From positions 1 through 42,635 of the forward strand of contig CACHJU010000019.1 in NCBI GenBank assembly GCA_902580225.1: a stretch of DNA of 42,635 nucleotides, given 5' to 3'. Positions 14,298 through 24,439 of the stretch are shown one piece after another. The stretch comes from an uncultured Verrucomicrobiota bacterium. Lineage in GTDB: Bacteria > Verrucomicrobiota > Verrucomicrobiia > Opitutales > Seribacteraceae. A program made the translations under genes and the position numbers. Position 1 is the first letter of the stretch; each line of letters begins with the position of its first letter. Below the pieces are notes generated by a model that saw nothing but the letters and a program-made list of their open reading frames with translations, was not told the DNA's origin and made no database searches.

Positions 14298-14402
14298 AAA
14301 AAAATATTGCACGAACAAGGAATTAGAATATCAAATCACACGATGAATTCGCAAAGCAGTATTCGAAGACTCAATCTATGTTCTCTCGCTCGATTGAGTA
14401 GA

Positions 14403-15713
14403 ATGAGTTTATCTTTGACTGACCAAATTGAAAGGCTACAAAAGCGAATCGAAAGCATGGAAGCGGAGTGTACGAAACTCGCCACGGATGAGGGTTCGGT
14501 TGTTTTGCAGGAATATCACGGTGAGTACTTATTGAAGTTTGATCGAATGGAGTACGAAATCGATAATCTAAGATCAAAATCGCAGGATCTTGAAGAGAAG
14601 CGCAAGGTTATCGATGATGTCAGGTTGTCCAAAGAATTGATGACCAGGCAAGCCGAAGCACTAGGAGGGATGAGAGTCGTTAAGCTCAAGGATTCTCTCA
14701 TCTTCGTTCTGATTATTTTCGTTCTAAGTTTGCTGATCATGGAAATTTACCGAATTGGAGTTAATGGTAAGGGAGCAGAAGTTGAACTTGTTCTGCAAGA
14801 GGGAAGGGTAGTGGATGTTCGCGTTGTCAATGCGGGGGGCGGATACGAGGCATTGGAAATTAACACGGCTGGTGAAAGACCCAAGCAAGAGGCATTTTTC
14901 AAACCTTTGCTTGAGAACGGTAAGCTGATCGAGGTGGAAATAATATTGAACGGGGAGGGATACACCAAGAATTCAAATCTGTCGGTAATTCCGGATTTCT
15001 CAGACAAAATTCATTGGACCTTTTGGGGGCTCGACACATTTTGCTGCTGCCTATTTATGCTCAATTTCTTCTTTGAACTCAAGCTCTCAGGGAACAAGAG
15101 ATGGTATTGGCGTAGAAATTGGATTGATTTTCTTACCTCCATTCCCTTTCCCCCTCTTCACTTGATCAGCTTGGGGGGAGAGAGCGTCAATGCTCTTCGA
15201 GCAGGAAGAATTATCAGGGTGATACGAGTCTTGCGGGCCCTGAGAGTGTTACGGATGTTTTTTTTCTTTTGGCGCGGCTTGGATCACTTGTCTTCGGTTA
15301 TGGATGTCAAGTTGCTCAAACGCTCACTAATCTACGGACTGTTCTCAATGTTTGCAGGGGCCATGATTTTCATGAGCATGGAAAGAATGGAGGGAGGAGA
15401 TGGAAGTTTTCTCGAGTCCCTGTGGTGGAGTTTCACAACCTTGGTGACAGGAGGCTTTGCGGATATTCACAATCCCCTAACCTTGGGAGGAAAAATTCTC
15501 ACCGTGATGCTCGTAATCGGAGGTATGGTCTTGGTCGGTGTTTTCACTGCTACGCTTACGACGGTCCTGGTAAGGGATGACGAAACATGGCAAAGGCATG
15601 ATATTGACGAGCAATTCAATCAAATGGCAAAGCTTGAAGAGAAGGTGGATGGAATTGCGGACGCCCTCCAGCAATTGAAGGAAAAGTCCAACCCGGAAAA
15701 AAAATCAAACTGA
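14403..15713 (+). CDS. Six-helix voltage-gated-type ion channel with unusual filter
   Basis: The ATG at 14403 (436 residues) is chosen because the paralogue at 22897 aligns from this Met. Residues 5-85 are coiled coil. S1 is 97-117. A ~80-residue insertion between S1 and S2 holds two Gly-Gly-Tyr-type strand motifs (NAGGGYEALEI, LNGEGYTKN). S2 and S3 cover about 205-255, then S4 at 266-285 with regularly spaced Arg (GRIIRVIRVLRALRVLR). S5 is 309-326, a pore helix follows, and S6 is 364-388. The filter reads TGGFA-D (350-354) where K+ channels have TVGYG-D. A short coiled coil ends the protein. This is a voltage-gated ion-channel superfamily protein; ion selectivity cannot be assumed. Its end overlaps the convergent vWA gene by nine bases. 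Confidence 0.87.
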   Translation: MSLSLTDQIERLQKRIESMEAECTKLATDEGSVVLQEYHGEYLLKFDRMEYEIDNLRSKSQDLEEKRKVIDDVRLSKELMTRQAEALGGMRVVKLKDSLIFVLIIFVLSLLIMEIYRIGVNGKGAEVELVLQEGRVVDVRVVNAGGGYEALEINTAGERPKQEAFFKPLLENGKLIEVEIILNGEGYTKNSNLSVIPDFSDKIHWTFWGLDTFCCCLFMLNFFFELKLSGNKRWYWRRNWIDFLTSIPFPPLHLISLGGESVNALRAGRIIRVIRVLRALRVLRMFFFFWRGLDHLSSVMDVKLLKRSLIYGLFSMFAGAMIFMSMERMEGGDGSFLESLWWSFTTLVTGGFADIHNPLTLGGKILTVMLVIGGMVLVGVFTATLTTVLVRDDETWQRHDIDEQFNQMAKLEEKVDGIADALQQLKEKSNPEKKSN

Positions 15714-17036
15714 ATTCGGTAATTCAAGCACTTTACCAAAAGGAAGCTCCGCCGCATCCACAGCATATTCCTCGGGCACGACCCAGAGCATCCTGCAACT
15801 TGGTGGAGTGGTTGGCGGTGGCGCGTAGCCGTCGGTGAGGTAAAGCAAACCGTCGAACCTGCGTTGTTCCTGCATCCATAGGAAAACCGGTTCGAATTCC
15901 GTTCCACCTCTTCCTTCGACCGTTTTGGGTGGTTTCCCATTATAATCGTACCTCCTGTGGATTTCTGCATCGCACTCCACAATGGTCACGCTTGCGCCTG
16001 CCTGCCAAATCCCGTGAATTTCTGTGAAGAACTCCTCAAGCATCTGATCATCGACCGAACCCGACGTGTCTATGGCAATAAGTAACCTCTGAAACCGTTG
16101 GATTTTGACGCCAGGTCGGGTGCCAAAACGTTTACTCACGCGTTTTACGGTATGCCTGATTCTCGTCTTTCCCGTAGCTGCGCAAAAGATTCTCAGGGCC
16201 CGTTTCCAATCGAGCTTGGGTTGTCGGTCCTCCAAGATTTCCGAGAGTTGGGCTAGTATCTGGGCGGGCAGCGAACCCCATTCTCGGGCTGAGGTACGGT
16301 CCTTCGCAGTCAAGATCGTGCTTTCAACAGAATACCGGCCCATGTTGTCATTAATCTGATCTTTGCCATCGCTCCAGCCGCCATGGTCGTCAGCCTGGGA
16401 ATTGCCCAAGTGCCGGGCCAATGAAGAGGCACTTTTCGGGGCTCCGGTTTTCGTCCAGTCTCTTTCTTCCCAAGACTCTTTTCCTTCGCCATCCTGACCG
16501 TTCCCTCCTTCGCCGCTCTCGCTTGCGTCGTCTGACTTTTCCATTTTCTTCAACAGCTCCATCAGTTTTTCGTAGTAGTGATCGAGCGTTTGATCGGGTG
16601 CAAGATCGAGTTCGGGGAAATCGTCCGGGCATAGAAATCCATCCGGCAGGGGCAGGGGTGCGACCAACTGATTGACCACCAGATCAGCTGCAAGATCATA
16701 GATCCTTTCATTCCGGTCCGCCAATCGGAAAAGATGACGAAATACAACATGGAGGAGCAAGTGCTTGATCACGCCCATCCGCAGCTTGTCCGTCTGGATC
16801 GGACTCCTTCTCTTCAGATCGTTGAGAAAGAAATCGGGGTTTACCTGAACGACGACTTGATTCCCATTCCACAAAATGCCCGCAGTCTCGGTTTTCAGAG
16901 TGACTTCCCTGGGCATCGTTCCGAGCAAATGAGCGTAGAAGGGTTCCTTGAGCAAAAGATCGAATCCCGTCCTGGCCAATTCCTCTTCCGCTTCTCCAAG
17001 GCACGGCACCGAGTCCTCTTTTCTTTTCACGCTCAC
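15705..17036 (-). CDS. vWA/DUF2201 metallopeptidase-like protein, HExxH lost
   Basis: This 443-residue protein has the DUF2201 layout: an N-terminal zincin-like domain and a C-terminal vWA-like domain. In the N-domain the expected HExxH reads H92-LLL-H96, with His101 and the AADLVVN motif (116-122) retained; the catalytic Glu is replaced by Leu, so peptidase activity is unlikely. A low-complexity acidic linker (about 165-235) follows. The vWA part keeps the metal-ion site: IDTSGS, the Thr of RGGTEFEP, and LTDGYA. It is the last gene of a - strand operon with a MoxR ATPase. MoxR and vWA proteins generally work as chaperone pairs that insert metals or remodel complexes. Confidence 0.9.
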   Translation of the reverse strand: MSVKRKEDSVPCLGEAEEELARTGFDLLLKEPFYAHLLGTMPREVTLKTETAGILWNGNQVVVQVNPDFFLNDLKRRSPIQTDKLRMGVIKHLLLHVVFRHLFRLADRNERIYDLAADLVVNQLVAPLPLPDGFLCPDDFPELDLAPDQTLDHYYEKLMELLKKMEKSDDASESGEGGNGQDGEGKESWEERDWTKTGAPKSASSLARHLGNSQADDHGGWSDGKDQINDNMGRYSVESTILTAKDRTSAREWGSLPAQILAQLSEILEDRQPKLDWKRALRIFCAATGKTRIRHTVKRVSKRFGTRPGVKIQRFQRLLIAIDTSGSVDDQMLEEFFTEIHGIWQAGASVTIVECDAEIHRRYDYNGKPPKTVEGRGGTEFEPVFLWMQEQRRFDGLLYLTDGYAPPPTTPPSCRMLWVVPEEYAVDAAELPFGKVLELPNSV

Positions 17037-17055
17037 CTTTGAAGCCTTGGCTCAC

Positions 17056-17749
17056 TCATTCAAACCGATAACCCTTCATCAGTTGATCGACTATTTTCTT
17101 CTTCTTGTCATAGACGGTTCCCGATTTGTTGGAAGCCCGGGCGGATCCGCCCGAAATGCCCGACAAGGTCTCAAGGACCGGCTTTCCCTGGCCTGTGAGC
17201 GAGTGGGTCGACAATTGCATGAAGCGAGTTGACTTTCCGCTTTCCTTGACGAGCATCGTCGTCCCCAAAAATCCTAAGTCGAAATTTTCGTTTTCCTCAA
17301 GCACTGCGATCGATTCCTTGGATAAAATGAAAGGAGAGCTACGCCAGGCATATGCGTCTCTGATTTGATCAAAACGAAACTTGGTGGGAAGATCCCGCTC
17401 GGCCAAAACGGCGGCCGTTTCATCAGGGATTTCAACCTGATCATGCTCTTTGCAGGCTAAAACGAGAGGGAAGGGCAGAGCTGCCAAGGCGGTTCGCTTC
17501 TCCCCAACCCGAGCCAGTCAGACCCCAGAGATAAAGGGTGCCCTTGAACGCGGACAGGCTCTTTGCCGCCGTTGAGCCAAGGCTAGTCAGACCATAGAGA
17601 TCAAGAGAATCCCATTTGGAAGTCTTCCTTGCCCCGAGGACAAGTACAGCCGCGTCTTCAATTTCCGTAAAATCACCAACCGCGACCGAGTTCTCATCCT
17701 CAAGGTACTGCTCGGCGATCTCCTTGGTCAGTAGCTTTTTCGCACTCAT
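17056..17749 (-). pseudogene. LRR-like repeat gene with a frameshift, between moxR and vWA genes
   Basis: The 5' part (17749 to about 17520) encodes MSAKKLLTKEIAEQYLEDE, shared with the other repeat proteins, and two or three LRR-like units (LDLYGLTSLGSTAAKSLSAF). Near 17520 the reading frame must shift by one base to continue. The 3' part then reads LARVGEKRTALAALPFPLV and a ~140-residue non-repeat domain (FRFDQIRDAYAWRSSPFILS, FLGTTMLVKESGKSTRF) ending MKGYRFE. Total length is 694 bases, one more than a multiple of three. Either a one-base insertion broke the gene, or it is a sequencing error or programmed frameshift. The start overlaps the moxR stop as ATGA, so it belongs to that operon. 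Confidence 0.7.
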
Positions 17750-18879
17750 AGTTTTTGGATCAGTTCACGGGCCAGGTTCTTGTCCTTGAGAAAGCTCTTT
17801 GCTGCGGCCGAGGAACTTGAGCTTAGGTCTAGCATGATGCTCGCCCGTAAATCGTTCGGGATTTCTTTTTGGAGCAAAAACGAAGAGAAATTTTTCAAGT
17901 GAACATCCTTGGGTATGTATTTCTCAGAGGTCACATGCAGAAAAAGCCGGGTGCAAACCGAAGAAATTCGGTCGATTCTTTTCCTGCCGTCTTTTCCTAA
18001 AGACAATTCTTTGAATTTTTTTTCCCAACTCTTGGAAGATTTGGCATCGAGAATGTCCTCGGGGTTGAGAAGAACGGTCAACTCGTCGTTTACGAAATTG
18101 ATGAAAGCAGCGACCGTCGTGTCGTCGAGCACGCTTCCAGCCAGGTTTGCAATGGTGTCCAAGTTTCCCTTCAAGTCGTCGATGTCCTCAATCTGCTCGA
18201 AAAACTGGACGAGCGTTCGGGGGGTCGTTCTCAGACCGGTCACGGATTCGGGATAGTTTAAGACGAATGCAATGCCCCGCGGGTCGACCTCGGCTCCTTG
18301 CGCCCACTTGGCCCATACTTTCGCATCGAAAGTGAGTGTAAAATGAAGCATTCGGGTGAGCATGGCGTCATCCATCGGAGTTACCGAGTAACTGGCTCCT
18401 TCGGGGTTGGCGGTGGCGACGATCTGCCATTTGGTCGGCAGTTCCCAGGAAAACATGGCGAAGTTTTGGAGCAGTTGCATAATCCCGCGCAGGATTCGGT
18501 CATCTGCCCGATTGACATCGTCAAGCAGAAGAATGCCAGGACCTTCGTCTTTGGGTACCCAATCGGGCGGGGCGAATACGGTTCGTTCGTCTCCACTGTT
18601 TGGCTTGTCAGGAGTAGGGTCGACTACGATAGGCATACCGTGCAAATCGCCCATTTCCTCAAACTGAGCCGGTGCACAATAGGCAAATTTCCAGTTTTTC
18701 GCTTTGGCATACTCCTGAACCATCTGTGTTTTTCCAAGACCGTGAGTTCCCCAGATGCAAATCGGTGTGCCCGTTTTGCCATCTGCGTTCATCTTTTCGT
18801 TTTTTTCGAAAATTTGGGCAAGCAGGTTTTGCATCGCTACTGAATTGAGACTGGGCCCGTATCCGTTTTTTGACTTCAT
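17746..18879 (-). CDS. MoxR-family AAA+ ATPase
   Basis: This 377-residue AAA+ protein has Walker A GTHGLGKT (44-51), Walker B GILLLDDVNRAD, sensor 1 IVATANPEG and a Pro/Asp-rich loop (MDDAMLTRMLHF) typical of MoxR. The C-terminal third is helical and Ser-rich (LDLSSSSSAAAKSF). MoxR ATPases remodel partner complexes together with a vWA protein; the partner here is the vWA/DUF2201 gene two positions downstream. The operon order is moxR, repeat gene, vWA, with ATGA overlap at the first junction and 19 bases at the second. A candidate WYL operator lies about 95 bases upstream of the start. Part of this gene's 5' end is duplicated at 23686. Confidence 0.9.
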   Translation of the reverse strand: MKSKNGYGPSLNSVAMQNLLAQIFEKNEKMNADGKTGTPICIWGTHGLGKTQMVQEYAKAKNWKFAYCAPAQFEEMGDLHGMPIVVDPTPDKPNSGDERTVFAPPDWVPKDEGPGILLLDDVNRADDRILRGIMQLLQNFAMFSWELPTKWQIVATANPEGASYSVTPMDDAMLTRMLHFTLTFDAKVWAKWAQGAEVDPRGIAFVLNYPESVTGLRTTPRTLVQFFEQIEDIDDLKGNLDTIANLAGSVLDDTTVAAFINFVNDELTVLLNPEDILDAKSSKSWEKKFKELSLGKDGRKRIDRISSVCTRLFLHVTSEKYIPKDVHLKNFSSFLLQKEIPNDLRASIMLDLSSSSSAAAKSFLKDKNLARELIQKL

Positions 18880-19329
18880 GGCATCAGCAAAATCAATTTA
18901 TTTTTTATACTCAACCTTATTGTGGTGAAATAAGTTCAGGGGCTTGGAGGAATTGTACAAGAAGTTGCAAGGGACATTATTTGTCCTTTAGACATGTTAT
19001 TGTTTTCCTATGATTAATATGGAAGATTTTTTCGGAATGGGCTTCGAGGAAGAGCCTGAATTAACTAATGATTTGGTTCAGGGCAACGAACCCGAAGGAG
19101 GAGGGTGGGGGAGTTTCCTTTTGGGAGGAGCGATTGGTTCCGTTATGGGAGCTGTTAGCCAGACTTCGGAGAGGTCATGTCATCCCGCAGTCTTCGAATC
19201 CTTCAGTTCCGAGGAAAAAATCTTTCTCCGTCAGATTTGGCGTTTTGAGGAAGAAATTGACAAAGCACAGGAGCAGGATGATGTCGAGCGGATGGTTCTG
19301 CTGCTAAACGAATTCGTCGGGTGCATGCA
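18790..19329. repeat. Direct repeat copy 1 (moxR 5' end, intergenic, small gene)
   Basis: This stretch recurs at 23686-24222. The small-gene part is almost identical (about five differences in roughly 320 bases). The intergenic region has two well-conserved blocks around a diverged middle (18941-18971), and the moxR part is more diverged. Homology ends at 19329 inside the small gene, which is thereby truncated here. Confidence 0.9.
18972..18986. promoter_or_regulatory. Candidate WYL operator, site 2 (GGACA-TTATT-TGTCC)
   Basis: The inverted repeat lies between the divergent moxR and small-protein genes. A third half-site GACAT follows at 18991-18995. The site matches site 1 at 12 or more of 15 positions and is kept in the duplicated promoter at 23865, although the 30 bases on its moxR side have diverged. 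Confidence 0.6.
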
Positions 19330-19638: not shown

Positions 19639-20856
19639 ATGAGAAAAATTCGTAGGATAGAACTTGAGGACTTTATGTCCCACAAAAAAACCGTTTTGGA
19701 TTTTGCTGATGGTATTACCTTATTGTCGGGTGATAATAATTGCGGAAAGTCCGCCGTGGTGGTGGCGTTGGAGGGTATTTGCGGGATGACTCACAGTGGA
19801 TGGATGGTTCGCCACAAGGCCAAACAGGCAAAGGTAACTTTGCACTTGGAGGATGAGGATGGAACCGTTCACCTTGTCGAGTGGAGAAGAAAGCAGAAAA
19901 CCCATGGATGGACAGTCAATGGAGTGAAGTCTGATCGTGGTAAACCAGATGACCTTCATGATGTTTTACGAATGGGTGAAGTAAAAAAGAAGACGGGTAC
20001 GGGTTCATTCAATGTTCACTTTGCTCAGCAAAAAGACCCGATTTTTCTGTTGAATGATACGGGAAGTCACCGGGCTGAATTCTTCACTACCGCGGGGGAT
20101 GCCCAACTACTCCTCGCAATGAGGCAAAAGCTTAAAAGTAAGCAGAAAGAAGCGACCGGGAGGCTGTCACAATGTGAGCGGGAAATTAAAATCAGTAAAG
20201 CCAGAATTGAGTCACTTAGTGAAGTGCCCGAGATGGTGAAGTCGGTGGATGAATTATCAGAAAGAAGAGCAGGTCTAATTGAAGTTCGTGAAAAGATATT
20301 GGATATGAGAGGTATGCGTAACAGTCTGGTTCTGGCTGAGGCCGCGGAGAATTCTGCTCAGGACCGTGTAACTATACTTGCCGATCTCCCGGACACCCCT
20401 GAGATTGAGAACCTGGATGAACTAAAGGCAAGTTTGCACAAAATCCAAGATTCCGAAAGTGTACTCGTTTATCTTAACCAAAAAGTGGGCGCATTTAAGG
20501 AGATCCCAAAATCTCTGAATGTTGTGGACACCACTTCTATTGAAAATATTCTTCAGCAATTGTATGCCTCCCTTAAAAACTTGGATTTGTTCAAGGAAAT
20601 ATTCGAAACTTTAAAGACGCTGCCAGAAGATGGTCCGGAGCTAGCTAATACAGAGAATATTGAAGCTGATTTAAATTCATTGCATGCTCACTCAAGTGAG
20701 CTTTCCAAAAGGGAGAGGGAGTTAAAAAATATCGATGGTGAATTAAAGTCCTTACAGGAAAACTGGAAGGATTTGATGAAGAAAAATCCGAAGTGTCCAA
20801 CATGTGGATCGATTCTCGATGAAAGACATTTGGAGGGATTCCATGATAAGACCTAG
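19639..20856 (+). CDS. Rad50/SbcC-like ATPase, N-terminal half ending at the zinc hook
   Basis: This 405-residue protein is the front half of an SMC/Rad50-type ATPase. It opens KIRRIELEDFMSHKKTVLDF, with Walker A GDNNCGKS (31-38), a β-rich lobe-1 section and a Q-loop (HFAQQKDPIFLL). From about residue 170 it is coiled coil. Near the C-terminus comes a single CPTC (Cys386, Cys389), the zinc-hook motif by which Rad50 coiled coils join, and the protein stops 16 residues later. There is no ABC signature or Walker B. Those lie in the separate gene at 22111. The Mre11-like nuclease gene overlaps its end by 14 bases. Composition is more AT-rich than recCBD, consistent with transfer. Confidence 0.9.
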   Translation: MRKIRRIELEDFMSHKKTVLDFADGITLLSGDNNCGKSAVVVALEGICGMTHSGWMVRHKAKQAKVTLHLEDEDGTVHLVEWRRKQKTHGWTVNGVKSDRGKPDDLHDVLRMGEVKKKTGTGSFNVHFAQQKDPIFLLNDTGSHRAEFFTTAGDAQLLLAMRQKLKSKQKEATGRLSQCEREIKISKARIESLSEVPEMVKSVDELSERRAGLIEVREKILDMRGMRNSLVLAEAAENSAQDRVTILADLPDTPEIENLDELKASLHKIQDSESVLVYLNQKVGAFKEIPKSLNVVDTTSIENILQQLYASLKNLDLFKEIFETLKTLPEDGPELANTENIEADLNSLHAHSSELSKRERELKNIDGELKSLQENWKDLMKKNPKCPTCGSILDERHLEGFHDKT

Positions 20857-21823
20857 AAGAAATAATCAAGAAGGATTCCTTTTTATTGGTGATCCTCACT
20901 TATCGGGCCGCAATCCTGGCTTGCGTAAGGACAAGTACCCCGAGGAAATACTAAAAAAATTAACCTGGTGCTTGGAAAAAGCTAAGGAGCAAAATTTGCA
21001 ACCTGTTCTCTTGGGTGATCTCTTCCATTATCCAAGGGATAATCCCAATTGGTTGATTAATCGATTGATTGAGTTGTTTAACCAATATTATGTGGTAGGG
21101 ATCTATGGGAACCATGACTGCTATGTTAATGAGCTGACGGAGGATGATAGTTTGATGCTCTTGAGCACAGGGGGGCATCTGCCACTTCTCTCAGAAGATA
21201 ATTGGATGGAGCTGGAGATGAGTGATCAAAGAGTGATTCTTGCAGGCACGCCATGGGGAAAGAAGTTTCCTCCCAGCCGAAAAAGTATTGAAGAAAAGTA
21301 TGGCTCGAAAGATGCAAAAATTGTCTGGATCACCCATCACGATCTAAAGGTTTCTTTATACGAGTATTTTGGACGAATTAAGCCACAGGCAATACCGGGA
21401 GTGGATTATGTGGTAAATGGTCATTTGCACCATCCCGTAGATACCATTACGAGAGAAATGACCAAGTGGTGTATTCCGGGAAATATTTCTCGGGTCAAAA
21501 AAAGTGATGCCACTGCCAGTGCAAAGCCACAAGTGTTAACACTAAAATTAGACAGTGGTTCCTGGGTAGAGAAATATTGGGAAGTACCGCACAAGCCATT
21601 TGAGGAGGTTTTTCATGAGGGCGTAAAAAAACAAAATGTTGGCGAAGATGAATTCTCCGGCTCCGTGGTAGGCTTACGCGAGTTGCTTAAAGAAAAGACC
21701 AACGAAGGAGCAGTATTGGATGAATTTCTCCAAATTAATTTTGAGACATTGAAACTTTCAGCCGATGTGCGGCAGGAAATACTTAATCTAAAAGAGGAAA
21801 CAGCAAAAGAGTGGAAAGAATAA
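20843..21823 (+). CDS. Mre11/SbcD-like metallophosphoesterase
   Basis: From ATG 20843 (GGAGGGA Shine-Dalgarno five bases upstream) the protein has 326 residues. The calcineurin-like nuclease motifs are all present: GDPHL (Asp17, His19), LLGDLFHYP (Asp59), YGNHDCY (Asn90, His91), the later WITHHDLK, and NGHLHHP. A C-terminal part (about 210-326) is probably the Rad50-docking region. Mre11/SbcD cuts DNA ends and hairpins when the Rad50 partner hydrolyses ATP. The gene lies between the two halves of that partner, so a complex is very likely. The GTG at 20804 would overlap the upstream gene by 53 bases and is rejected. Confidence 0.9.
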   Translation: MIRPRRNNQEGFLFIGDPHLSGRNPGLRKDKYPEEILKKLTWCLEKAKEQNLQPVLLGDLFHYPRDNPNWLINRLIELFNQYYVVGIYGNHDCYVNELTEDDSLMLLSTGGHLPLLSEDNWMELEMSDQRVILAGTPWGKKFPPSRKSIEEKYGSKDAKIVWITHHDLKVSLYEYFGRIKPQAIPGVDYVVNGHLHHPVDTITREMTKWCIPGNISRVKKSDATASAKPQVLTLKLDSGSWVEKYWEVPHKPFEEVFHEGVKKQNVGEDEFSGSVVGLRELLKEKTNEGAVLDEFLQINFETLKLSADVRQEILNLKEETAKEWKE

Positions 21824-21824
21824 A

Positions 21825-22118
21825 ATGAGTGAAGATGACCAGATAAAAGAGCTGCTTAAAAGGCACCAGGATTTACTAAGTCAAAAAGCAATTGCGGAAG
21901 ACCGACTGAAAACCGCAAGCAATCAATTACAAAAAGCCAAAGAGGATGCTCAAGAAAAGTACGGTACCGATGACCCGGAAAAACTTTCAGCCAAGCTCGA
22001 TGAATCGAGGGCAGAGAACGAAAGTAAGATCGCCAAGTTTGCCAAGGACTTGGGTATCGTAGAAGAAAACCTGAAAAGCATAGACGAGAAGGCCAAAACC
22101 GCTGGCGATAATGACTGA
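21825..22118 (+). CDS. Small coiled-coil protein of the split Rad50 cassette
   Basis: This 97-residue protein is strongly charged and almost entirely helical, with heptad-like Leu/Ala spacing (IKELLKRHQDLLSQKAIAE, ENESKIAKFAKDLGIVEENL). There is a possible turn at YGTDDPEKL. It has no cysteine pair. It starts one base after the nuclease stop and overlaps the next gene by eight bases. Position between the N- and C-terminal ATPase genes suggests that it supplies the missing return arm of the Rad50 coiled coil as a separate chain. That role is an inference. Confidence 0.75.
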   Translation: MSEDDQIKELLKRHQDLLSQKAIAEDRLKTASNQLQKAKEDAQEKYGTDDPEKLSAKLDESRAENESKIAKFAKDLGIVEENLKSIDEKAKTAGDND

Positions 22119-22791
22119 ACTTATCCATAGGGAAATTCCTTCCTTAGATAAGATAAACCGACATGCCGCAATTTTGTCGCGTTTACTTGACGACGAGAAG
22201 GGAGAGCTAGAAAGAGCGGAGCAAAACAAAAAGAAGGAAGAGGACTTATTGAACCTGTATCCCAAAGTGGATCAGGCAATGGAGAGTCTTAGCCAGAAAC
22301 TCTTACATCAAACCGTTGGGAAGGCGGAGCGATTAATGAGTGAAATGGCCCAGGAGGTCCTTGACCAACCAATTGAGGTGAAAGCGAGGGTTTCTGAAAA
22401 TCGTGGTGCTGCAAATGTTGATTTTCATGTTGAGAAAAATGGAGAAGTAGAGGACATTATAAAAGGGCAGGGAGGTTCCGTAGCCAATGTCTTATCAGTC
22501 GCCCTTCGAATTTATGCTCTGGAATTTCAACCTGATAATGAACACCTAAAGTTCCTCGTGCTTGATGAGCAGGATTGCTGGTTGAGGCCGGAGTTAGTTC
22601 CCCGCTTGCTTAGTGTAGTCCAAGAGGCAGCTAATGATCTGGGATTTCAAGTGCTTTATATCAGTCACCATGATTCTGCTATGCTTGAGAGGTATGTAGA
22701 TAAAACATATTTGCTTGAGCCTGATACAAATGGCGACGCTCAGGTGCGTGAGATATTTTTCCATCCTAGCGAGCAGGACAATACTGTTTAA
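22111..22791 (+). CDS. Rad50/SbcC-like ATPase, C-terminal half
   Basis: This 226-residue protein holds the back half of a Rad50-type ATPase. Residues 10-85 are coiled coil. An ABC signature-like stretch KGQGGSVANVLSVALR (118-133) stands where SbcC has LSGGE. Walker B is FLVLDE (148-153) and the H-loop is YISHHD (184-188). It has no Walker A and no CxxC. Paired with the product of the 19639 gene it would complete two composite ATP sites in the usual head-to-head way. The gene overlaps the small coiled-coil gene by eight bases, closing a compact four-gene operon. Confidence 0.9.
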   Translation: MTELIHREIPSLDKINRHAAILSRLLDDEKGELERAEQNKKKEEDLLNLYPKVDQAMESLSQKLLHQTVGKAERLMSEMAQEVLDQPIEVKARVSENRGAANVDFHVEKNGEVEDIIKGQGGSVANVLSVALRIYALEFQPDNEHLKFLVLDEQDCWLRPELVPRLLSVVQEAANDLGFQVLYISHHDSAMLERYVDKTYLLEPDTNGDAQVREIFFHPSEQDNTV

Positions 22792-22896
22792 ATTAGTATT
22801 GGCTTATCATTTTAAGTTTATGTCTAAATTTAACCTGTGAGTTCTCAATCCAGTATAAAGCGACTTAAACTATGCTAATTGGGCAGGTTGCATAAA

Positions 22897-23604
22897 ATGT
22901 CTGATACTCTGTCTGCTGAAATTACTAAGTTAAACTATAAAATTGATAAAATGGAGGGACAGTGCAACCAATTGGCAGTTGATGAAGGCACAGTCGTCAT
23001 ACAGCAATATCATGGAGAATATTTACTCAAATTTGATCGAATGGAATACGAGATCGATGGATTTCGTAGGAAAGTCGATGATATGTCAGAAAAGAGAAAG
23101 ACCATTGATGAAGTTCGCTTAGTCAACGAGTTGGAGCAAAAACAGGCTGCAATTTTAGGGGGAGTCAAAATGGTAAAGGCGAAGGATACTATAATCTTTT
23201 TCCTTATCCTATTTGTACTTTGCTTACTCGCGATGGAAATCTATCAGATTGGAGCACCTGGGAATGGTGCACATATCGAGCCTTGAGGGGTGGAAGATCG
23301 AGATGGCAGTTTTTTGGAGTCTTTGTGGTGGAGTTTTACCACCCTTGTCACTGGTGGATTTGCAGATATTCACAACCCAGCAACCATGGAAGGGAAAATT
23401 CTCACTGCACTTTTGGTAATTGGCGGGATGATATTAGTGGGAGAATTTACCGCTACCTTGACTTCTGTATTGGTGCGTGAAGATGATTCTTGGCAAAGAG
23501 ATGATATTGATGTGCAACTTAGCCAAATATCAGCTCTTGAAAATAAACTGGAGTCCATAGAACAGGAACTCAAAAACCTAAAAACTAAGCAAGGCAAAGA
23601 CTAA
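22897..23604 (+). pseudogene. Second ion-channel copy, internal deletion and in-frame TGA
   Basis: From ATG 22897 the first 124 residues align with the channel at 14403: coiled coil with AVDEGTVVIQQYHGEYLLK, then S1 (TIIFFLILFVLCLLAMEIY). After GNGAHIEP comes TGA (23284-23286). The same frame resumes as DRDGSFLESLWWSFTTLVT, GGFADIHNP, S6 and a C-terminal coiled coil. Relative to the other channel about 200 residues are gone: the S1-S2 insertion, S2-S4 and S5. Read through, it would be a two-helix pore protein. As it stands it gives an S1-only fragment plus, if GTG 23290 is used, a pore-S6 fragment. Protein identity to the first copy is moderate, so the duplication is old. Confidence 0.75.
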
Positions 23605-23685: not shown

Positions 23686-23774
23686 CATCTTCTCTTTTTT
23701 TGGAAAATATGGGCGAGCAGGTTTTGCATCGCTGCTGAATTGAAACTTGGACCATATTGGTTTTTTGGCTTCAT
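23686..23774 (-). pseudogene. moxR 5' remnant
   Basis: On the - strand this reads MKPKNQYGPSFNSAAMQNLL then AHIFQKK. That is clearly the start of the MoxR protein at 18879 (MKSKNGYGPSLNSVAMQNLL) with several substitutions. Homology stops after about 28 codons and no ATPase motifs follow. Confidence 0.85.
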
Positions 23775-23864
23775 GGCATCAGCAAAATCAATTTATTTTT
23801 TATATTCAACCTTATTGTGGTGAAATCATTTCAGGGATTTGTAAAATGTGAAAGAAGTTATAAT

Positions 23865-23879
23865 GGACACTATTTGTCC
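23865..23879. promoter_or_regulatory. Candidate WYL operator, site 3 (GGACA-CTATT-TGTCC)
   Basis: This is the counterpart of site 2 in the duplicated promoter, 24 bases upstream of the intact small-protein gene. Both half-sites are unchanged, and so is the downstream GACAT half-site (23884-23888). Confidence 0.6.
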
Positions 23880-23902
23880 TTTAGACATGTTATTGTTTTC
23901 CT

Positions 23903-24439
23903 ATGATTGATATGGAAGATTTTTTCGGAATGGGCTTCGAGGAAGAGCCTGAATTAACTCATGATTTGGTTCAGGGCAACGAACCCGAAGGAGGAGGGTG
24001 GGGGAGTTTCCTTTTGGGAGGAGCGATTGGTTCCGTTATGGGAGCTGTTAGCCAGACTTCGGAGAGGTCATGTCATCCCGCAGTCTTCGAATCCTTCAGT
24101 TCCGAGGAAAAAATCTTTCTCCGTCAGATTTGGCGTTTTGAGGAAGAAATCGACAAAGCACAGGAGCAGGATGATGTCGAGCGGATGGTTCTGCTGCTAA
24201 ACGGATTCGTCGGGTGCATGCACGGTCCATGGAAAGATCATTTCCCCGGAAACGAGGATTATTGTCCGACCGAGAAATTCAATGCGGAGATCGACAACTT
24301 GGTCCTTCCTGTCCTCCAAAAAGCGGCTTCTTTTAGTGAGGACGAACTGAATGCCCGGTTGACGCCCGAACAGTTCAAACGGATTGATGGCCGTAATATG
24401 ACCTTAAATCCAGACGACTGGACTTTCTGGTTGAAATGA
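23903..24439 (+). CDS. Small Gly-rich protein, copy 2, intact
   Basis: This 178-residue protein is the complete member of a three-copy family in this window. It has an acidic N-terminus (EDFFGMGFEEEPELTHDLV) and a Gly-rich hydrophobic segment (about residues 35-50, GGWGSFLLGGAIGSVMGAV). A helical region follows (EEKIFLRQIWRFEEEIDKAQ), then CMHGPWKDHF and a C-terminal part ending LNPDDWTFWLK. I do not recognise the family. It has no signal peptide. A candidate WYL operator lies just upstream, and recC starts 140 bases downstream, so it may be the lead gene of the recCBD transcript. ATG 23912 is an alternative start. Confidence 0.75.
   Translation: MIDMEDFFGMGFEEEPELTHDLVQGNEPEGGGWGSFLLGGAIGSVMGAVSQTSERSCHPAVFESFSSEEKIFLRQIWRFEEEIDKAQEQDDVERMVLLLNGFVGCMHGPWKDHFPGNEDYCPTEKFNAEIDNLVLPVLQKAASFSEDELNARLTPEQFKRIDGRNMTLNPDDWTFWLK

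Follow-up and report, generated by a model that had tools for sequence, protein, structure and literature searches.

Models of Rad50 and of the structural maintenance of chromosomes (SMC) proteins assume a single folded-back chain that links both strands of the arm and both lobes of the ATPase head. Variants of this plan have been described. In the Mre11/Rad50 fusions of Mimivirus (R555) and of megaplasmids, Mre11 stands in front of Rad50, according to the part of the article available to us (PMC3175470); the Lamassu protein LmuB, as presented in the available part of PMC10586767, is one chain of ~650 residues with short coils, many members having a hook, and the glutamate of its Walker B motif is usually replaced by glutamine. 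In this study, we analyzed a 42,635-nucleotide stretch of contig CACHJU010000019.1 from an uncultured Verrucomicrobiota bacterium (the whole stretch is called the window), which carries at positions 19639-22791 four consecutive genes: the N-terminal half of a Rad50-type ATPase (A), an Mre11/SbcD-like metallophosphoesterase (B), a small protein (C) and the C-terminal half of the ATPase (D). An earlier note, made from the sequence alone, had proposed that A and D each supply half of a single Rad50-type ATPase accompanied by an Mre11-like nuclease. Gene order, folds and motifs confirmed this proposal, and the observation proved stronger than stated, since the split Rad50 is conserved and has permuted relatives.

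Inspection of the open reading frames of the window showed that all four genes lie on the plus strand, with an overlap of 14 bp between A and B and of 8 bp between C and D; the Mre11-like gene and the 97-residue gene stand between the two halves, overlapping or nearly so, just as had been described. The end of A and the start of D are ~1.25 kb apart, and because complete B and C genes occupy this interval, a frameshift joining the halves is impossible. A D-based scan of contigs from one genome per species recovered 104 relatives, and 80 loci were retained. Sixty-four of the 80 loci kept the order A-B-C-D on a single strand (A being cut by the contig start in 10 of them), five had contigs starting inside the operon, with B-C-D left in four and C-D in one, and 11 had D without A, B or C. 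Among the measurable junctions of the 64 loci (L080, whose start is unsure, was omitted, and the start codons were script-chosen and approximate), an overlap or a gap of at most 15 bp was observed at 53/54 A/B junctions, 59/63 B/C junctions and 46/63 C/D junctions, the widest C-D gap being 451 bp. The named hosts include Planctomycetota, Thermodesulfobacteriota, Chlamydiota, Bacillota, Sumerlaeota, Poribacteria and Pseudomonadota bins. Alignments were built for 55 A, 64 B and 78 D proteins, with the window in each set and genes cut by contig ends omitted, and the tested ATP-site and nuclease residues were invariant or nearly so. The search for the half-proteins as conserved neighbours, which the earlier note had proposed as a check, thus came out in its favour: the split arrangement of A and D is genuine and conserved, and the retention of gene order in 64 of 80 loci demonstrated that it is not due to chance.

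Gene A (19639-20856, plus strand, 405 aa) was identified as the Rad50 N-terminal half, comprising the Walker A lobe, arm and hook, by Pfam, AlphaFold and Foldseek together. It matched Pfam AAA_23 with an expectation value (E) of 2e-10, over the family cut-off, and its architecture runs from Walker A through Q131 and a coiled coil to a CPTC motif followed by 16 residues to the end of the chain. The Walker A motif GDNNCGKS (residues 31-38, 19729-19752) was recognized by conservation; its G36 and K37, as well as Q131 of the Q-loop, were kept in all 55 aligned A proteins, and A thus has the N-lobe with Walker A and Q-loop that marks Rad50 and SbcC. The CPTC motif (residues 386-389, 20794-20805) is predicted to be a zinc hook, as suggested by its conservation and by a profile match: 53 of the 55 A proteins have a CxxC 15-42 residues before their C-terminus, and the A profile matched the solved Rad50 hooks 6zff_A (E 6.7e-6) and 1l8d_A (E 1e-4), covering the first parts of these chains only (13-79 of 140 and 5-61 of 112, respectively). 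The AlphaFold model of A, built with 52 sequences, had a mean predicted local distance difference test score (pLDDT) of 81.8, and a Foldseek search with it returned two Smc6 chains on top, followed by the Rad50 N-lobe chains 9a9j_A, 1f2u_C, 1f2u_A and 1f2t_A; N-lobe chains in the list came from PDB entries 1f2t, 1f2u, 1ii8, 1us8 and 9a9j. Against the NCBIfam Rad50 model PRK03918, A scored 53.0 bits, far below the cut-off of 700.

Gene D (22111-22791, plus strand, 226 aa), assigned by AlphaFold and Foldseek as the Rad50 C-terminal half, carries one N-terminal helix and the complementary motifs that had been claimed for it. The signature-like motif GQGGS of the ATP-binding cassette (ABC) type (residues 119-123, 22465-22479), the Walker B motif LVLDEQDCW (residues 149-157, 22555-22581) and the H-loop histidines (residues 186-187, 22666-22671) were all delimited by conservation, with G119, G121, G122 and S123, D152 and E153, and H186 and H187 kept in 78/78 D proteins. 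D therefore possesses a C-lobe with signature, Walker B and H-loop, as in Rad50 and SbcC. Pfam detected AAA_15 only weakly (E 0.044). The AlphaFold model (75 sequences) reached a mean pLDDT of 90.6 and a predicted template modelling score (pTM) of 0.74 and showed a helix of ~73 residues (12-84) followed by the lobe; its top Foldseek matches were the separately solved C-lobe chains of Pyrococcus furiosus Rad50 (1ii8_B, 9a9j_B, 1f2t_B and 1f2u_D). The head lobes of P. furiosus Rad50 were reportedly produced in the laboratory by co-expression of two individual chains. Since A, modelled as a single chain like D, matched N-lobe chains and D matched C-lobe chains, both halves match heads whose solved structures consist of two polypeptides. 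By its motifs, each carries half of one Rad50-type ATP site.

Gene B (20843-21823, plus strand, 326 aa) was identified by Pfam and by conservation of its metal motifs; its start was taken as the ATG at 20843, the automatic open reading frame list starting at the GTG at 20804. It matched the calcineurin-type phosphoesterase family Metallophos of Pfam over the cut-off (E 1.5e-8), and D17, H19, D59, N90, H91, D92, H165, H194 and H196 were kept in 64/64 proteins and H166 in 63/64, so that the phosphoesterase metal-binding motifs of Mre11 and SbcD are present in B. Its score against NCBIfam SbcD was 13.8 bits, with a cut-off of 450. Gene C (21825-22118, plus strand, 97 aa) was delimited by its conserved positions (L10, L17, a GTxD turn at 47-50, L54, N65 and L83) and by the fixed length of its core, which spans exactly 74 residues from L10 to L83 in 51/51 loci. 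Judged from this pattern, C is probably a helical hairpin; comparison with the PDB gave weak coiled-coil matches only (best E 0.02).

The arm of A is modular. According to DSSP of the model, it begins with a long helix at residues 153-248 (20095-20382, plus strand), and the first pair of prolines follows F148 by 101-106 residues in 41 of the 53 A proteins with a hook. In the window, proline periodicity, length steps and the model then delimit three 39-residue units (20374-20784, plus strand), ending in helices 260-287, 298-326 and 339-382. Across the 53 A proteins with CxxC (L026 and L045, without CxxC, were excluded), the arm, counted from F148 up to the hook, measured 199 to 513 residues, the commonest lengths being 237 (10 proteins), 276 (14), 315 (4), 354 (6) and 362 (4); 34 of the 53 lengths equal 3 modulo 39, and six more equal 11 modulo 39. 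A period test on these lengths peaked at 39 (0.893), with a broad maximum (0.881 at 40 and 0.843 at 38), and the spacing of prolines within the arm was sharper, with 311 pairs at 39 and 216 at 78. A total of 244 units, 2 to 10 per arm, gave a consensus of approximately LxxLxxPPxLxDxxxLxxLIxxL with mainly one hydrophobic stripe; the units were cut by anchoring on prolines, which inflates the proline frequencies within them.

In addition to the split loci, we found permuted relatives on megaplasmids. A search of plasmids with the D protein returned 21 records, of which 14 were examined; in 14/14 loci D and A form one chain with D first and a CxxC near the C-terminus, and this D-A fusion is a circularly permuted Rad50. 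At E 0.01, a C-like gene precedes the permuted chain in 13/14 loci and a B-like gene follows it in 12/14; in a smaller search the otherwise missing C of locus L091 appeared at E 0.0013 and the missing B of L093 at E 0.0019. The plasmid order C-[D-A]-B is accordingly the chromosomal A-B-C-D rotated cyclically. A chain uniting the two lobes with the N-lobe first was found neither in the split (64/80) nor in the permuted (14/14) loci, and single-chain relatives of canonical order, which would have spoken against a split, were not found among the close relatives, the fused ones having D before A. A quick tree, with long-branch warnings for the window and the permuted rows, placed a fully supported branch between the split proteins (window and genome loci) and the permuted ones; the window formed a long branch at the edge of the split group. 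The B-like proteins of three megaplasmid loci, L091 (8635-9411), L092 (8703-9599) and L093 (8893-9666), are without the GNH and GHxH motifs and are, on this ground, probably not nucleases.

The co-occurrence of the genes ties A and D to each other. Of 199 genomes from the phylum around genome G007, nine carried D, and A was found in 9/9 of these D-bearing genomes; in 12 D-less genomes of the same phylum the search for A gave nothing strong, with two weak matches over ~45 positions. The pairwise distances of the A head, B, C and D agreed across 51 loci (Mantel r 0.71-0.89; top of 500 shuffles 0.20). Even among the 11 genomes in which D stands alone, A was located on another contig in six, which indicated that D works as a free gene: three of them (L142-L144) had A-B-C on a separate contig, and three Pirellula-type genomes (L139-L141) had A and B adjacent on a separate contig, with no C detected in the stretch read. 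The relation to SbcC was less clear. The SbcC model TIGR00618 at E 1e-8 had no match in 9/9 D-bearing and 2/12 D-less genomes; of 14 control genomes, three were likewise missed at this threshold and only one passed the cut-off. Because the model is this insensitive, the lack of SbcCD in the D-bearing genomes is weak evidence of replacement. The genome from which the window comes, 67% complete, had AAA_23 matches at eight places and only one fragmentary match to SbcC.

Taken together, the unit most likely encodes a four-subunit, Mre11-Rad50-type DNA-end nuclease in which Rad50 consists of two proteins, with a modular arm and the hook at a chain end. Chain A, with the Walker A lobe, and chain D, with the signature, Walker B and H-loop lobe, would assemble one ABC head, and two such heads with two B nucleases would close on ATP, the signature of D acting on the ATP of the opposite head if the unit works as Rad50 does. 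The fixed lengths suggest that the D helix may pair with the head-near part of the constant first helix of A and that C may pack on the rest of it. Beyond this helix, A would form a rod of 39-residue units without a return strand from any operon gene, running to the hook alone or paired with a second A, and the putative zinc hook at the A end would join two A chains. ATP-driven opening and closing of the head may expose DNA ends for B to trim or clip, in place of SbcCD. The combination of an Mre11-type nuclease with an ATP-driven Rad50-type head implies DNA-end processing, and the biological role may lie in repair, or in defence or plasmid maintenance.

Several observations weigh against this proposal. 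First, in 5 of the 11 D-only genomes, all of them drafts, no A was found. Second, the A proteins of L026 and L045, sister rows in the tree, have a similar other C-terminal sequence without CxxC, which suggested that the hook is dispensable in some lineages, and Pfam Rad50_zn_hook was absent from the 25 families listed for 52 scanned A proteins. Third, the A model had a pTM of only 0.39 with low-confidence arm joints, and sequence profiles of D against the PDB returned no Rad50 chain and one weak SMC3 match. Fourth, the loss of the B nuclease motifs in several megaplasmid relatives indicated that nuclease action is not always the point.

More tentatively, and at somewhat less than even chances, the unit may represent a third SMC/Rad50 architecture: a two-chain exchangeable head, a one-strand arm of variable units (paired, if at all, with a partner A arm), a hook at the end and an arm length set by unit number, permuted to one chain on megaplasmids. 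The arm may instead belong to the same complex and fold back on itself, as a zigzag or solenoid of 28-residue helices, yielding a self-contained rod whose hook is not at the far tip. The separate helices of the model, 260-287, 298-326 and 339-382, with low-confidence proline loops between them, agree with folding back, and a lone A chain without a partner strand would otherwise expose a long helix. However, arms grow by single 39-residue units (237, 276, 315, 354), and a strict zigzag would flip the direction of the hook at each such step; the one main hydrophobic stripe per unit also suits a two-stranded coil over a bundle. We regard the folded-back arm as a less probable alternative to the extended rod.

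A different question is whether the proposed nuclease is a housekeeping substitute for SbcCD or a mobile module directed against phages or plasmids, or serving plasmid or phage recombination. The spread of the unit is patchy: with the starting genome counted in each case, it occurred in 1/27 genomes of the genus and 1/288 of the phylum of the window, and in 14/297 genomes of the phylum around genome G009, in addition to the 9/199 above. The RecC gene adjoining the locus, present in 9/27 genus genomes and 69% identical in a genus mate, showed that the contig fits the genus, and the split Rad50 looks acquired by the window's genome. Upstream of RecC, five genus mates had no flank in common with the window apart from RecC itself, and offered no clean empty insertion site. 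Direct repeats flank the A-D genes at 18800-19250 and 23695-24143 (147 nt at 89% and 300 nt at 97%, ~4.9 kb apart), as if a duplication had arisen around an insertion. The permuted forms on megaplasmids and a weak PADLOC match of A to Lamassu LmuB (E 2e-10) point in the same direction. In contrast, no LmuA-like effector or defence gene recurred in flank clustering, which was done without LmuA models, no match was found in four scans of IMG/VR, and the nuclease motifs are intact in the chromosomal forms. A mobile defence or recombination module is conceivable, with roughly the same rather low likelihood as the folded-back arm, and a viral origin of the unit was rejected, with no relative in the IMG/VR scans and five weak phage matches only.

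Some further observations concern the surroundings and the phage matches. An ion-channel gene lies at 14307-15713; its second copy, which is broken and shorter, lies at 22879-23604, on the opposite side of the locus. Between the first copy and the unit, on the minus strand, a MoxR-type AAA ATPase (17746-18879) and a VWA/DUF2201 metallopeptidase-like gene (15705-17036) form a pair (15705-18879) matching the phage families phrog_1297 and phrog_1314; MoxR and VWA-type pairs have been described in jumbo phages, as stated in the accessible part of PMC7824862. An Alteromonas plasmid also has a VWA-like gene close to its permuted locus. The MoxR and VWA/DUF2201 genes were rejected as partners of the unit, neither having a relative in the 80 other loci, and flank clustering yielded mainly shadow frames antisense to A-D, besides small groups of local extent, with no partner common to many loci. 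Microbacterium phage Magritte encodes a short D-like ATPase half (L094, 284-934, E 8.8e-22); the 5.9 kb that were read contained no A-like gene, and the "ASCE ATPase" of this phage matched A at E 1.1. A Burkholderia phage protein was rejected, being a chain of canonical order that did not match D within a limit of E 10.

The earlier note had further held that the return arm is a separate protein; on such a reading, C and D together would run antiparallel along the whole A arm. Both proteins have helices before or beside the C-lobe, and the ~73-residue helix of D can pair near the head; that single helix and the fixed C core are nevertheless set against an A arm of 199 to 513 residues. The part of D before the signature measured 111-153 residues, and neither D (Spearman -0.12) nor total C length (0.14) correlated significantly with the length of the A arm. 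A fixed C core and a nearly constant D beside a variable A arm indicated that C and D are no whole-arm return strand; for the 39-residue units this part of the claim is already contradicted, and as a whole it is very improbable. The hook in mid-chain with an antiparallel return arm, characteristic of Rad50 and SbcC, is thus lacking here. Finally, the possibility that one rad50/sbcC gene has been rearranged or is decaying in the window's genome, which partial duplications on both sides of the locus might suggest, can practically be dismissed, the same split with invariant motifs being found in 64/80 loci from several phyla, and a pseudogene or frameshifted gene was likewise rejected by conservation.

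A natural family with separate lobes and a hook at a free end would test whether hook and head must be linked in one chain to communicate, and arms that vary naturally in length, for the most part by 39 residues at a time, together with the two topologies (split or permuted), would make the function of long arms testable. A Rad50-type motor apparently made from two half-proteins, or from a fusion in reversed order, alters what a Rad50-type machine can look like. Literature on split, bipartite, permuted or heterodimeric Rad50/SbcC and on planctomycete Rad50/SbcCD yielded no such system in titles and the beginnings of abstracts, and a description elsewhere is possible. Compared with known systems, the unit shares with Rad50/SbcC both head lobes, Walker A and B, signature, H-loop, a CxxC hook and an Mre11-type partner; however, Rad50/SbcC is one chain with the hook in the middle, whereas here two genes encode it with the hook near the C-terminus of A, there is no return strand for the distal arm, C is an extra subunit and the scores are far below the NCBIfam cut-offs. 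B resembles Mre11/SbcD as a calcineurin-like phosphoesterase with invariant metal-binding motifs, but falls below the NCBIfam SbcD cut-off, and some partners of the permuted forms are without the motifs. The Mre11/Rad50 fusions, as far as the available part of their description goes, are similar in being rearranged Mre11-Rad50 genes often borne by megaplasmids, while in our unit the Rad50 halves are separate or joined to each other in reverse order. LmuB, judged by the portion of its description at hand, is likewise a small Rad50 relative, often with a hook, yet its Walker B usually has glutamine for glutamate, and D keeps the DE pair in 78/78 proteins. The head fold is also shared with SMC proteins such as Smc5/6, Smc6 chains being the top Foldseek matches of A; unlike these, the A/D unit has no hinge and possesses a CxxC hook and an Mre11-type partner.

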